A stretch of 64,000 nucleotides of DNA from Sedimenticola thiotaurini (lineage in GTDB: Bacteria > Pseudomonadota > Gammaproteobacteria > Chromatiales > Chromatiaceae). Positions 13,675-49,379 of the stretch are shown piece after piece. Each line of letters begins with the position of its first letter. Positions within the stretch are counted from its first letter, which is position 1. Location: assembly GCA_007713595.1 (NCBI GenBank), contig VMRY01000003.1, forward strand, positions 496,001 through 560,000, given 5' to 3'. A program made the position numbers and the translations under genes. The notes under the pieces were generated by a model. That model had not been told where the DNA came from and did not search any database. It worked only from the letters and a program-made list of their open reading frames with translations.

Positions 13675-14313
13675 TTAGGACATCTCTTCCGTGGTTGTAT
13701 TTTCTTCGGGCATACTCGATTCAGCGAGCCATCTATCCAGTACAGCATGTGCCTCATCAATACCCTGTCGTTTGAGGGCAGAGAAAAGCTGGGCGGTGTG
13801 AATACCTTTAATCTCCTTCAAGGCTTTTTTAACCTGCAACAGGCTTTTCGATGCCGCTCCCCGTTTCAATTTATCCGCTTTGGTCAGCAGGATATGCACA
13901 GGTAGCTGGATTGAGCCACTCCACTCCAGCATCTGCAGGTCAAACTCCTTGAGTGGATGGCGCACATCGGCCAGCAGTATCACGCCGCGCAGTGATTTAC
14001 GCTGCTCAAGATAGGCGGCCAGTTCAGCTTGCCACTGCAGCTTGATTTTTTCCGCGACTTTGGCGTAACCATAGCCTGGCAGATCCACCAGGCGGTGCTC
14101 GTCATCAAGGGAAAAAAAGTTCAGCAGCTGGGTACGACCCGGAGTTTTACTGGTCCGGGCCAGACTCTTCTGTTGACACAGGGCGTTGATGGCGCTGGAC
14201 TTTCCGGCATTGGAGCGTCCAGCAAAGGCGACTTCCGCCCCAGTGTCGGATGGGGATTGTTCAACCTTGGCGGCGCTGGTGAGGAATTTTGCTTGATGGT
14301 AGAAAGGATTCAT
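13675..14313 (-). CDS. engB: EngB/YihA ribosome biogenesis GTP-binding protein
   Basis: The 212-residue protein is a GTPase of the TrmE-Era-EngA family. The G1 motif GRSNAGKS is at residues 32-39, the switch region reads [14 protein letters not shown]3 is DLPGYGYAK and G4 is LTKADKL. EngB helps late 50S subunit assembly. An ATG at 14346 would add eleven residues. I chose 14313 because [10 protein letters not shown] matches the usual N-terminus, although GGGGT lies close before the upstream ATG, so the longer form remains possible. It converges with polA across the hairpin region, as polA and engB often neighbour each other in gammaproteobacteria. Confidence 0.94.
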
Positions 14314-14408
14314 CAGTTTCGACTGGTAGTGAAATGAAGCGAACATACCCCATATATTGCGTTGCCGCTACAAAGGGGTATGTCAGCGGATGTTTAGTCA
14401 GCGTACTA

Positions 14409-14873
14409 TTATCCCCGAATATTTGACCAGAGTCGCTTGGCCCAGGACTTTTTTCCAATCATTTTCTGAGCCCCCGCCTCTAAAAATAATCCTCTATACT
14501 TCATCCCCCCCTCCATTATGTGCTTGGAGAGCCAGACTTTAAGGAAATGCATCAGTTCAAATCCAATGGCGTGCTTTCCTGTGGCAATCTTCTTTTGCAG
14601 ATCCACGATTTGTTGAATCAACTCTTCGTGTAGATCGTGGTGCTCTTCATAGCCAGGGAAATGGAGAATGCGCATAAGACTCTCCTCTACGGCGAAATGG
14701 ATACGGGTATACTCAGCCAGTTCTGCAAGGATGCCCTCAACAACGTCACTGCCGTGGCGCTGATGAATTGCATCATGCATTCGATTGATTAGCCGAATCA
14801 GAATCTTATGCTGTTCATCGATCTCTTCGATGCCGACGCTGAGTTCTTCAGTCCAAGTAATGAAGGTTTTCAT
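14409..14873 (-). CDS. Bacteriohemerythrin with one altered metal ligand
   Basis: The 154-residue protein has the four-helix hemerythrin pattern. Expected di-iron ligands are His22, His59, Glu63, His78, His82 and His118. The seventh ligand, an Asp five residues after the last His (HIxxxD), is Gly123 here (HIMEGGMKY). Bacteriohemerythrins bind O2 for storage or sensing or supply it to enzymes. Loss of the bridging carboxylate may weaken or change the iron site. A basic tail of about 25 residues follows the domain. The frame continues normally after the altered position, so it is not a frameshift, although it falls in a run of G. It stands alone, with engB downstream on the same strand. Confidence 0.88.
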   Translation of the reverse strand: MKTFITWTEELSVGIEEIDEQHKILIRLINRMHDAIHQRHGSDVVEGILAELAEYTRIHFAVEESLMRILHFPGYEEHHDLHEELIQQIVDLQKKIATGKHAIGFELMHFLKVWLSKHIMEGGMKYRGLFLEAGAQKMIGKKSWAKRLWSNIRG

Positions 14874-15011
14874 CGTAATCTCCCATAAAGATAAGAGGCC
14901 GGCAGGCCTGCATATATAACCACAATAATTTTGCGGATATTAATGAGGATTTATCGCTGGATAAACACAATAAGCGTGTTTAGTTGATGAATGTCAGGAA
15001 GAATACTGATA

Positions 15012-15494
15012 TTACATTGGGTTTCTCATCCAGTGGCCAGATTTGCCACCCGCTTTTTCCAACAGTTGGACGCCATCGATGGTCATGCCACGATCTACCG
15101 CTTTACACATGTCGTAGATGGTCAGTAAGGCCACCTGGGTAGCACACAGCGACTCCATTTCGACGCCTGTCTGTCCGCGGGTTTTGACTGTGGCCACGCA
15201 GTAGACGGAGGAGCGATCAGGTTCAGGGGTGAGATCAATGCTGACGTGGGTCAGCGCCAATGGATGGCAGAGCGGGATCAGTTCAGCCGTTTTTTTTGCA
15301 GCCATAATGCCTGCCACCCGGGCAATGCCGAGCACATCACCTTTCTTGTGATCGCCGCGCTGAATCAGTGCCAGCGTTTCAGGCAACATGACTATCCGGC
15401 CCTCTGTGACAGCTACCCGCTGGGTATCCTGTTTATCACCCACGTCTACCATGTGGGCCTCGCCAGACTGATTGAAATGGGTCAGTTTGCTCAT
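15012..15494 (-). CDS. moaC: Cyclic pyranopterin monophosphate synthase MoaC
   Basis: The 160-residue protein matches MoaC in length and motifs: N-terminal MVDVGDK, central [11 protein letters not shown], and the C-terminal block [19 protein letters not shown] followed by CKAVDRGM. It converts the MoaA product into cyclic pyranopterin monophosphate in molybdenum cofactor synthesis. No moaA, moaD or moaE gene is in the window. The start overlaps the stop of the phosphoesterase gene by four bases (ATGA), so the two are translationally coupled and share a transcript. Confidence 0.95.
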
Positions 15495-22864: not shown

Positions 22865-25800
22865 CTACTGGAAATCACCGGGTGCTTCTTTATATTTGGG
22901 CCCTGTCGGCTTTAACTTTTCCAATAGACGCGAGAAGAAGCGTGAGGCCTTGTTTGTCTTTTTCTCACCGGTTTCAGTTTCACTGGGCGATTCCTGCGGG
23001 TTCACGTCGCTATTTTCTGTTGCGCTTTGCGGTTCTTCGTCTACCTGAAGATCAATTGTGGGGTCAATTTCAGGGAGCTCATAGGGCGCTGCTTTATTCT
23101 CCGTCGCCTGGTTTTCCGTCTCGGTATTCTCTCTGCCTTTGGGAGTCAAAACAGGATTGTCCCAGCTGCCGGTGGCGAGATATTGCAACTGGGTGACCTT
23201 ATCAAAAGACTCCCCCATCAACTGCTGGGCAATGAAAAGTGCGGCACCGACGGCCGGTCCTCCGGCGATGGCGCCTGCAATGGGTATGCTGGACGAGATC
23301 TTGGGTGTGATGGTCACCAGTGCGTCAAAGTCTTCATCACCCAGGCCGATTCGCCCGGAAAGCTCAATGTTGGCGGAGGGGCCCTTCATGGCGAAATCAT
23401 TGGTATAGGCATCACCACTGTCTAGCAAGAGTGAGCCTGTAATCGAATCAAACGAGTAACCTTTTTTGAAGATGTCACTAAAATCCAGCGTTAAGCGGCG
23501 CTTTAGTGCGCCCAGGTTGAACAGGGCAAACAGTCTGCCAACACCGGGGTCGACCTTTAGAAAACGCCCGTTGGCGACCTGCATGCTGATCTGACCATTC
23601 AGGTTTTTACTGCTGAAATCCAAGGGTGTACCTGTCCATCTGATGCGGCTGTCTATCTCCACAGGGGCCTCTCTCAGATTGTCTGATAAGGCCAGGTCTT
23701 TGAGAACGGAGCCAAGCTCGCGACTGGAGAGTGACAGGTCGACCGCAGTGTTGGATTGGTGTGCTGCATCCAGAAGCCAGCTGCCTGTTGCTGAGAGTAC
23801 GGCCCGGTCTGATTTGAGTGAGGCTGTCTGCAGATCAATGCCACTCTCGCGTCGTTGGGTGATGATCTGGAGTGTGCCAAAAGGTTTTTCATTAATGGAG
23901 ACAGATTTAGCTTGTATTTCAATTGCGGGTAGCTGGGTTGGGTCAATCGATTCTTTACTAACTGAGCGACTCGCTTTTTTCTGACTCAGCAGTGAGTCGT
24001 CGATGGTCAGGTTCAGCTGGTTTAAATCCAGGCGAATGGGTTCAGCTTGCCATCGGTGTGGTAGCACAATGGTGCCGTCAAAGCGATTACTCCGGTAGTT
24101 ACCCTGCCAGCTGTTCTGCTGTTTATTCAGATTGAGTGAAAAGTCGGTAATGGTGATAGCTTTCAGGGAGAGTTGATCGGCCGTGACACTGATTTTTCGG
24201 AGACCCTGTCCCGTGTTTTCGCTGTTGTTTTTCTGTCCGCCGATCATTTCGAGCCAGGGATCAAGGCGGATCTTCTTTAGCTTAACAGTGAGATCATCTG
24301 CCTTGGCTTTTTCGAGGGGATAGAGAATCCCTCCCTCGGCCCAGTCACTGATAATGGTGCCTTCCCAATGAGTTTCGCCTCTGTTTAACAGCAGGCGAGT
24401 CATGCCCGAGTGCATCTCATCAAGCGCTAAATTATCAATCTCAAGTGACACATTATTAAGCGGGAGCTGGCTCGGTGCAGTGTTACTGGGGCCCGGCATA
24501 TAGCTTAGCCAGGGCATCAGATCCAGTTCCTTTAACTTGCCGCGTATTTCAATCCCGTTTCGCTTGGGTAATAGTGCATCGGCATCGCCAAGGGCAACGC
24601 CAACATGGGTCAGCTGTGGTTTCTGCGGGTTCTTTCTATTCAGTGCCAGGGCCAGTTTTATCTGGTCGTTATAGCGAATATCAAACTGCTGTACCGTGCT
24701 ATTGCTTACCTGGGTTTTAAGTTGAAAAGGCCAGGATTGCTCAGCTGTTTTTCCCAGTGGCTCGGGCAGGTCGATCCGGCTGCCTAGGAGATCAGAGGTG
24801 ACGACTAGCCGGGTTGGCACATTAGGTCCAGCTGAGAGATGGGGTATGTCGAGGTCCATCTTCCATTGACTCTGCCCGGTAAGGAGAGCCTGGATGTCCT
24901 GTGCTGGAAACTGATCTTGTAGTGTCTTGCTTGAAATCGAGGCGTGGGCAGAGATGCGGGTTGCCTTGGAGTTGTTTTTGGGGGTTGATACATCGACTGA
25001 TATGGGAAGCCCAAGGGCTTTGCCTTTAATACCGGAGGCAAAAATGTGGTCTTGATCAAATTGCAGATTGCCCTGGATATTATTCAGCGCCAACTGCCAT
25101 TCAGTTAAGTTCAATGTTGAATCAAGGAATTCCAACTTACCTGCCAACGTAAAAGGTGAACCGTCATCAATGGGTAGACTGAAATCGAGTTCGAGCTGGG
25201 CTTCACCTTCACCTTTGAGGTCTTTTACCAGGGGGCCAAAATCCTCTTTCAGCGGTGACTCGGTTAACAATCGAAGATTGTCGTGAAACGGTCCCTTGAC
25301 CCGGCCGGACAGTTCCAGCGGCGAGGTAAGCGACAGCTCTTTTATGGAGGCATGAGCCGATTGAAGCTGACTATCCAGAATCTCGCCACTACTTGCCCAG
25401 GTGTCAAAGCTGTTATTCAGGAAGCGCACATCAGCGCTGAGATTATTCAGTGCAGGCCAATCAGGCCAGTAGCCGAGTTTGAGATTCTCTACATTAAAAA
25501 AGACCTCAAAGCGCCCACTGTGGGTGCGGTGAAAGGGAAAGTCACGTAGTGGGCCACGTACCACCACACTGCCTTCGGTGACATGGCCTTCGCCGATGCT
25601 GCGATCCAGCCAGGCAACCACATTTTCCCCCATGATGCCGGCAGGCAGATAGCGATGAGTGGTTATTGCATCGCCGTCCCAGTAGTCACTTTGTAGATCA
25701 AGAAAGAGAGGCGTCTCACTGCTCGACGGGATATCCATGCGCATGCGGCTAACGGTGCGGATATCATCATTTGCTGCAAAAAGCTGATCTGTATTGAGAG

Positions 25801-47996: not shown

Positions 47997-48149
47997 GGTT
48001 ACTCCCGGAATTGTCGAGCGAATTTTCCGTGCAGCGGGTTCAATATGCAAGGGCTCTTTCCGATATCCGCTTTTGGTTGGGTTATACTTTGCGTTTTTCC
48101 GGGGGAGGCGGTAGGCCAATTTCGGTAGCAGACAGGGCATGGAGCGATA

Positions 48150-49379
48150 GTGAATTCCCCCGTGATGGATATGTTGAATGTATTAACCAGCGGCCGCCTG
48201 CTGGTGCATGTGCTATTCGGCTTTGTCTGCGGTTTGCCGTTGCTGCTTACTGGATCGCTGTTACAGGCCTGGATGAACGATGCGGGGGTGGATCTCTCCA
48301 CAATCGGACTGTTTGCTTTTGTTGGCTTGCCCTACACCCTGAAGTTTCTCTGGGCTCCATTGTTTGATCGCTATACCCCTTCACGGTTAGGGCGGAGGCG
48401 CGGTTGGCTGCTCTTGGTGCAGCTGGTACTGATACTCTCCCTCGTGTTACTGGCCTTTTCCCAGCCAGCTACCAGTCCGTTAACCCTGGCGATGGCGGCA
48501 CTCCTGGTGGCTTTTTTTTCCGCCAGCCAAGATATTGTAGTGGATGCCTACCGGCGTGAGAGCCTCACGGATGAGGAACAGGGGCTGGGGGCGTCTTTTT
48601 ATGTCAATGGCTATCGATTGGGGATGTTGCTTGCCTCGGGAGGCGGGTTGATCATGTCCGATCTCATCAGCTTCCGTTCGGTCTATCTGGTCATGGCCGG
48701 GGTCATGCTATTGGGCTTGGCGACTACGCTGCTGTCTCCTGAGCCGGATGAGCCGCAGGGCCAGCCGCGAACCTTGCGTGAAGCGGTGGTGGAACCGTTT
48801 GTTGAGTACTTTCGTCGTCGTGATGCCCTGCTGATTCTGCTTTTCATTCTGCTCTACAAGATCGGCGATACGATGGCGCAGCATATGACCACGCCGTTCT
48901 ATCTCGATATCGGTTTCAGTAAAAGTGAAATCGGCACAGTGGTAAAATTGTTTGGATTTTCGGCGACGATCCTGGGGGGCTTGCTGGGGGGGGTACTCAT
49001 TTTACGCCTGGGTATTTTTCGCGCGCTCTGGAGCTTTGGTGTTTTGCAGGGAGTTTCTACAGCCGGCTTCGCGTTACTCGCCTTGCTGGGTAACAACCTG
49101 GGCGGTTTGGCTGCGGTGATCGCTTTTGAGAATCTGAGTGGGGGGATGGGTACAGCTGCCTATATTGCCTTCATGGCCAGTTTGACCAATCAGCGGTTTA
49201 CGGCCACTCAGTATGCGCTGCTGACCAGTTTTATGGGGATACCCCGGGTGATGGCGGCGGCGCCAACCGGATTTATGGTTGAATCAATGGGGTGGTTCGG
49301 TTTCTTCCTGTTCTGCACATTGATCGCACTGCCTGGATTGCTGTTGCTCTCCTGGCTGCAGCGGCGTGAGGTCAGTTAG
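48150..49379 (+). CDS. ampG: AmpG-family MFS transporter (muropeptide permease)
   Basis: The 409-residue major facilitator protein has about twelve membrane helices. Its N-terminal block is typical of AmpG ([19 protein letters not shown], then [19 protein letters not shown], then [14 protein letters not shown]). AmpG imports anhydromuropeptides for cell-wall recycling and feeds beta-lactamase induction where ampC is present. The GTG at 48150 has GGAG five bases upstream; an internal ATG at 48165 has no such site. It stands alone and is followed 56 bases later by the short DUF72 gene. Confidence 0.9.

Follow-up and report, generated by a model that had tools for sequence, protein, structure and literature searches.

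A bacteriohemerythrin of Sedimenticola thiotaurini that reads glycine at the bridging aspartate, within a densely rewritten patch

In hemerythrins, an aspartate and a glutamate (Glu63 in the protein described here) bridge the two irons. The closest described systems are the NCBIfam bacteriohemerythrin family NF033749, DcrH-Hr (2avk) and the bacteriohemerythrin 4xpx, which we take to be McHr. The fold and six of the seven iron ligands of these proteins are shared by the protein described here, whereas the bridging Asp is replaced by Gly and helix D is predicted to be broken. A survey of O2-binding hemerythrin domains describes 106 single-domain sequences that vary at residues coordinating the iron, and suggests that their function is lost or altered (PMC4919030). 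Like those sequences, the protein described here has a changed iron-coordinating residue in a single domain, so a private loss of the Asp would be variation of a sort already reported in the family. No report of an Asp-to-Gly bacteriohemerythrin was found among the matches listed in a literature search of limited extent. The RIC/YtfE proteins also have a hemerythrin-like bundle, in which a Glu at the fourth residue past a His provides one of the bridging carboxylates (PMC9268430). The protein described here has no Glu at that position, where Glu122 is changed to Gly.

The gene is found in a stretch of 64,000 nucleotides of the S. thiotaurini genome (the window). The first-pass annotation had described a bacteriohemerythrin ORF here, and its identity, strand and coordinates (Table 1) were confirmed by profile matches of 139.5 bits to NF033749 (curated cut-off 84) and 46.8 bits to PF01814. 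The frame, said in the same annotation to be intact, is so across all 154 residues. The region is colinear with that of the nearest relative, a genome of the same genus (G002) whose orthologue is that of Sedimenticola selenatireducens BK-1 (L039), and orthologues also lie inside matching regions of three other genomes (G001, G003 and G004). Five same-genus orthologues, four of them named Sedimenticola (L039, L040, L041 and L084) and one further (L014), are 81-91% identical to the window protein; the genomes of L040, L041 and L014 likewise have the neighborhood in common with the window. The window gene lies between moaC and a GTPase gene and appears to be the usual bacteriohemerythrin of the genus in its customary position. 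A palindrome that presumably represents an FNR/DNR motif is found upstream, with few changes, in 6/6 same-genus genes aligned. Its conservation suggests regulation of the gene by an FNR/DNR-type factor; a one-mismatch scan of the window found 11 such sites where 7.2 are expected, which is not above chance.

Table 1. Features of the bacteriohemerythrin locus, in window coordinates.
Feature	Position	Strand	Basis or note
Bacteriohemerythrin ORF, 154 aa	14409..14873	-	ORF call and profile match
Rewritten patch, codons 119-139	14457..14519	-	18/63 nt and 8/21 residues differ from nearest orthologue
Codon 123, GGG (Gly), bridging-Asp position	14505..14507	-	GAC/GAT in the 4 codon-compared Sedimenticola genes
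Codon 122, GGG (Gly)	14508..14510	-	GAG (Glu) in the 4 codon-compared Sedimenticola genes
CTGACATTCATCAA, FNR/DNR-like palindrome upstream of bacteriohemerythrin	14984..14997	-	alignment
moaC neighbor	15012-15494		PF01967
GTPase neighbor	13675-14346		PF01926

The window protein keeps five His and one Glu as iron ligands (His22, His59, Glu63, His78, His82 and His118). Five residues past the last His, where the bridging Asp is expected, it has Gly123, so that its seven ligand positions read HHEHHHG against HHEHHHD in close relatives. This count of six ligands and a Gly, claimed at first pass, holds by both translation and alignment. The register was settled by a phmmer alignment with DcrH-Hr that is gap-free at the C-terminus and places Gly123 on the Asp (HIMEGGMKY in the window, HIMKEDKKY in DcrH-Hr). 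The alignment with 4xpx, which had been proposed as a second check, ends at residue 121 and by sequence backs His118 only. All five same-genus orthologues read HIMEEDMQY; they have HIMEEDMQYSGFFL at the place where the window reads HIMEGGMKYRGLFL. A substitute Asp or Glu ligand, which would have overturned the claim, was sought in the window protein and none was found: Glu121 (His+3) occurs together with the Asp in the orthologues of the genus, and the Glu122 (His+4) of relatives is likewise lost. The gap-free alignment and the loss of Glu122 rule out another register with a different acidic ligand. Given its match to NF033749 and the absence of the bridging Asp, the protein is classed, on its sequence and fold, as a relative of the family that has a variant site, and not as a proven O2 carrier.

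The first-pass annotation had asked whether close relatives share the Gly; they were found to keep the Asp throughout. Position 123 is Asp in 47/47 distinct orthologues of at least 55% identity, which all keep Tyr126 as well; 29 rows were left out of this set, comprising 27 below 55% identity, one with internal gaps (L078) and one that is incomplete (L110). The Asp is also present in 40/40 further bacteriohemerythrin loci from related genomes, 28-51% identical, which are a part of the related-genome matches and were fetched from rows previously without a locus (one of them, L238, has a gap at one His column). Among the 114 non-window rows, in which many genomes appear twice, the Asp is aligned in 107, and five more (L023, L025, L028, L029 and L038) have it at His+5 when the ORF is read by eye. 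The remaining two, L110 and L035, are both frameshifted. L035 (minus strand, about 1500-1515) has its frameshift at the His-x4-Asp motif, which produces a false Gly at the Asp position; it was set aside as a second natural Gly case because the frame breaks at that point. Some of the other changes near Gly123 occur singly in relatives that keep the Asp (Lys125 in L071 and L081, Glu132 in L081 and Gly122 in L088). Among the relatives examined, the change of Asp to Gly thus appears to be private to the window lineage.

The Gly is one of many changes within a short patch. Relative to the nearest orthologue (91% identical), the patch has the residue changes E122G, D123G, Q125K, S127R, F129L, A132E, P137K and L139I, and holds 18 of the 59 nucleotide differences of the gene (18/63 against 41/399 elsewhere in the gene, P 3e-4). 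Its 3' edge is sharp, with 1/48 flanking bases differing on that side and 6/48 on the 5' side. In a five-genome comparison, 8/18 columns that are invariant in the other genomes are broken within a stretch of 20 codons, against 1/100 in the rest of the gene. When 76,962 short windows (337 genes, 464 kb of the genome, compared with G002 and G004) were ranked, leaving out those whose gene has more than 10% broken columns elsewhere and is thus otherwise divergent, the patch came first. In the same ranking, G002 has one cluster as large as the patch (8/17, in an apparent signal-peptide region), and G004, which is more distant, has several that exceed it; the ORFs in these multi-genome comparisons run from stop to stop, so that a few columns precede the true starts. 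By plain density the patch is ordinary, since its densest 60-bp bin has 14 differences and the median for the genome pair is 12; the bin stands out because the surrounding gene is so conserved. The five-genome comparison also found clusters larger than the patch in a transporter gene of the window (at 48128), where they arise because the whole gene is divergent. This MFS transporter gene (48150-49379, plus strand; PF07690, also PF13000) differs at 47% of the 159 columns that show no variation in the other genomes, and it is probably a xenologous replacement or a non-orthologous copy at the same place.

The changes in the patch are also of an unusual type. On the coding strand, C>A accounts for nine of the 18, against a window background of 7.8% (P 3e-6, by a test picked post hoc). 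C was lost at 11/14 sites and T changed at 0/15. This C>A bias and loss of C make the patch the lowest-G spot of the window's plus strand: the eight lowest-G 69-nt windows (at most 4 G) all start at 14446-14453. One other 63-nt stretch of the window, at 24247 and poorly conserved, also has nine C>A changes. Both dN and dS against the nearest orthologue are raised in the patch (0.225 and 1.97) relative to the rest of the gene (0.019 and 0.62). Codon adaptation falls to 0.44 at codons 121-140, with 0.51 and 0.57 in overlapping stretches, 0.56 at codons 81-100 and 0.64-0.76 elsewhere.

Outside the patch, the gene is well preserved. Of the 69 columns conserved at 95% or more in the 47 orthologues, 68 are kept in the window protein, including 63/63 outside the patch; one broken column is not unusual by itself, as another orthologue breaks five. 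The low dN relative to dS and the conserved columns kept outside the patch indicate that the gene has been under selection, and the rest of the gene is, on these measures, under purifying selection. The same two observations rule out decay of the whole gene as a pseudogene. Of the six such columns in the patch, five (I119, E121, Y126, F130 and G134) are kept, although this is not significant against a placement matched to the patch spectrum (P 0.22). Residue changes number 8 against 11.5 by random placement (P 0.008-0.014), and random placement with the patch spectrum gives a stop codon in 17% of cases.

Two explanations of the patch have to be weighed closely. The one that we favor, at a probability of about 0.5, is a genuine loss, private to the lineage, by which the di-iron O2 site is weakened or abolished. 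It is favored because the frame, the length and the five other conserved positions are kept and because residue changes are fewer than random, although the last point is weak support, as a mixture of errors with natural synonymous divergence would have the same outcome. It is also favored because the gene looks dispensable, because damage is seen in two other orthologues and because ligand variants of single-domain hemerythrins are on record (PMC4919030). Hemerythrin-domain matches number eight in the genome, the window gene included, and at least one of the others is a bacteriohemerythrin with all seven ligands (C149:463215-463589, about 32 kb to the left of the window). An orthologue-level match is absent in 3/8 same-genus genomes (G005, G006 and G008, which are 65, 90 and 78% complete). 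The loss could be tolerated because at least one other seven-ligand bacteriohemerythrin is present and because some genomes of the genus show no orthologue.

The two damaged orthologues have lesions of their own. In L078 (2798-3226, a Thiodiazotropha MAG), the Asp is kept and there are two in-frame gaps of four codons, one of which removes His118 while the other falls in the His78-His82 motif. In L110 (from 3001, a gammaproteobacterial MAG), Lys is found at the Glu63 position, followed by a frameshift and an early end. Both loci come from MAGs, and the damage in each could itself be error.

Nearly as likely as a real loss is a local error in the assembly consensus, for example at a spot covered by one or two poor reads, in which case the true gene would have the Asp. 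The first-pass annotation had found that the Gly looks like a real substitution and had suggested that it may change O2 binding or the metal held; the latter is a reasonable suggestion. The Asp is indeed missing from an intact frame; the claim is less secure because the Gly lies inside a dense 63-nt patch with an abnormal spectrum. The privacy of the patch to the window genome, its top rank for broken invariant columns, its loss of C, its sharp 3' edge and the lack of a donor sequence in the genome all speak for error. The raised dS and dN, the C>A spectrum and the low codon adaptation fit a patch of errors at least as well as ordinary evolution, and the patch could be either a fault in the local consensus or a mutational event of an unusual kind. 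Against error stand the absence of any frameshift or stop (though even random placement seldom gives a stop), the intact state of the five other conserved positions, and the number of residue changes, with the reservation made above. In addition, no second patch of like strength was found in the 464 kb examined, the locus is on a 577-kb contig, and a comparable run of C>A changes occurs at 24247.

An adaptive change is unlikely. It would leave a working hemerythrin with a single carboxylate bridge, in which five His and one Glu hold another metal or a single metal, or leave a position open for NO or peroxide chemistry. Equally unlikely is that the site is mononuclear or asymmetric and serves a new function in the Sedimenticola lineage, in ligand binding or the handling of NO. 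The six ligands kept, the intact selection outside the patch and the FNR/DNR-like palindrome upstream in all six genes are consistent with adaptation. However, none of the 47 orthologues or the 40 further family loci has lost the Asp, the loss is accompanied by rare codons and by seven further changes without clear purpose, and no compensating carboxylate was seen.

Copying of the patch from elsewhere, by gene conversion, template switch or a diversity-generating retroelement, is very improbable: the sharp 3' edge would suit a copied tract, but searches of the genome with 111 bases, and with a 29-base pattern allowing 3 mismatches, gave no second copy. Nor was there a direct or inverted match of at least 9 nt over two changed sites within 2 kb, a quasi-palindrome as the source of the patch, or an exact match to a 26-mer in viral contigs. 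The longest donor-like match in the window is 11 nt, which is no better than for unchanged sequence. The sole RVT_1 match is on another contig, and a search of the same genome for the template repeat of a diversity-generating retroelement gave no second match. In single-strand folding, the relatives' stretch folds more strongly than that of the window; no shuffle control was made and nothing is concluded from it.

The AlphaFold model of the window protein has the four-helix-bundle fold of hemerythrins (mean pLDDT 79.6), and the PDB structures closest to it are those of DcrH-Hr and bacteriohemerythrins (TMt 0.86-0.89). In the model of an orthologue, the bundle is kept and helix D runs over residues 105-132, with pLDDT 92 for residues 121-130; in the window model, helix D breaks off at 123 and resumes at 127, with pLDDT 70. 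A break of helix D at the Gly-Gly is only a hint, because such models respond weakly to single residues. That the patch bases are correct, and how they affect metal and O2, we infer. On the favored reading of a real loss, the end of helix D would have been privately rewritten in one lineage, with removal of the bridging Asp123 and its neighbor Glu122. The protein would probably still fold as a four-helix bundle and could hold metal through Glu63 and its five His. The loss of a carboxylate bridge and the break in helix D would leave the di-iron pair weakly or unequally filled, with reversible binding of O2 reduced or lost.

If the change is real, this gene, which selection otherwise maintains, is a natural test of how far a hemerythrin can work without the bridging Asp. 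If it is an error, it shows clearly how a fault in the consensus can leave the frame intact and mimic a change of the active site. Either way, the Asp is present in every one of the orthologues and further family loci counted.
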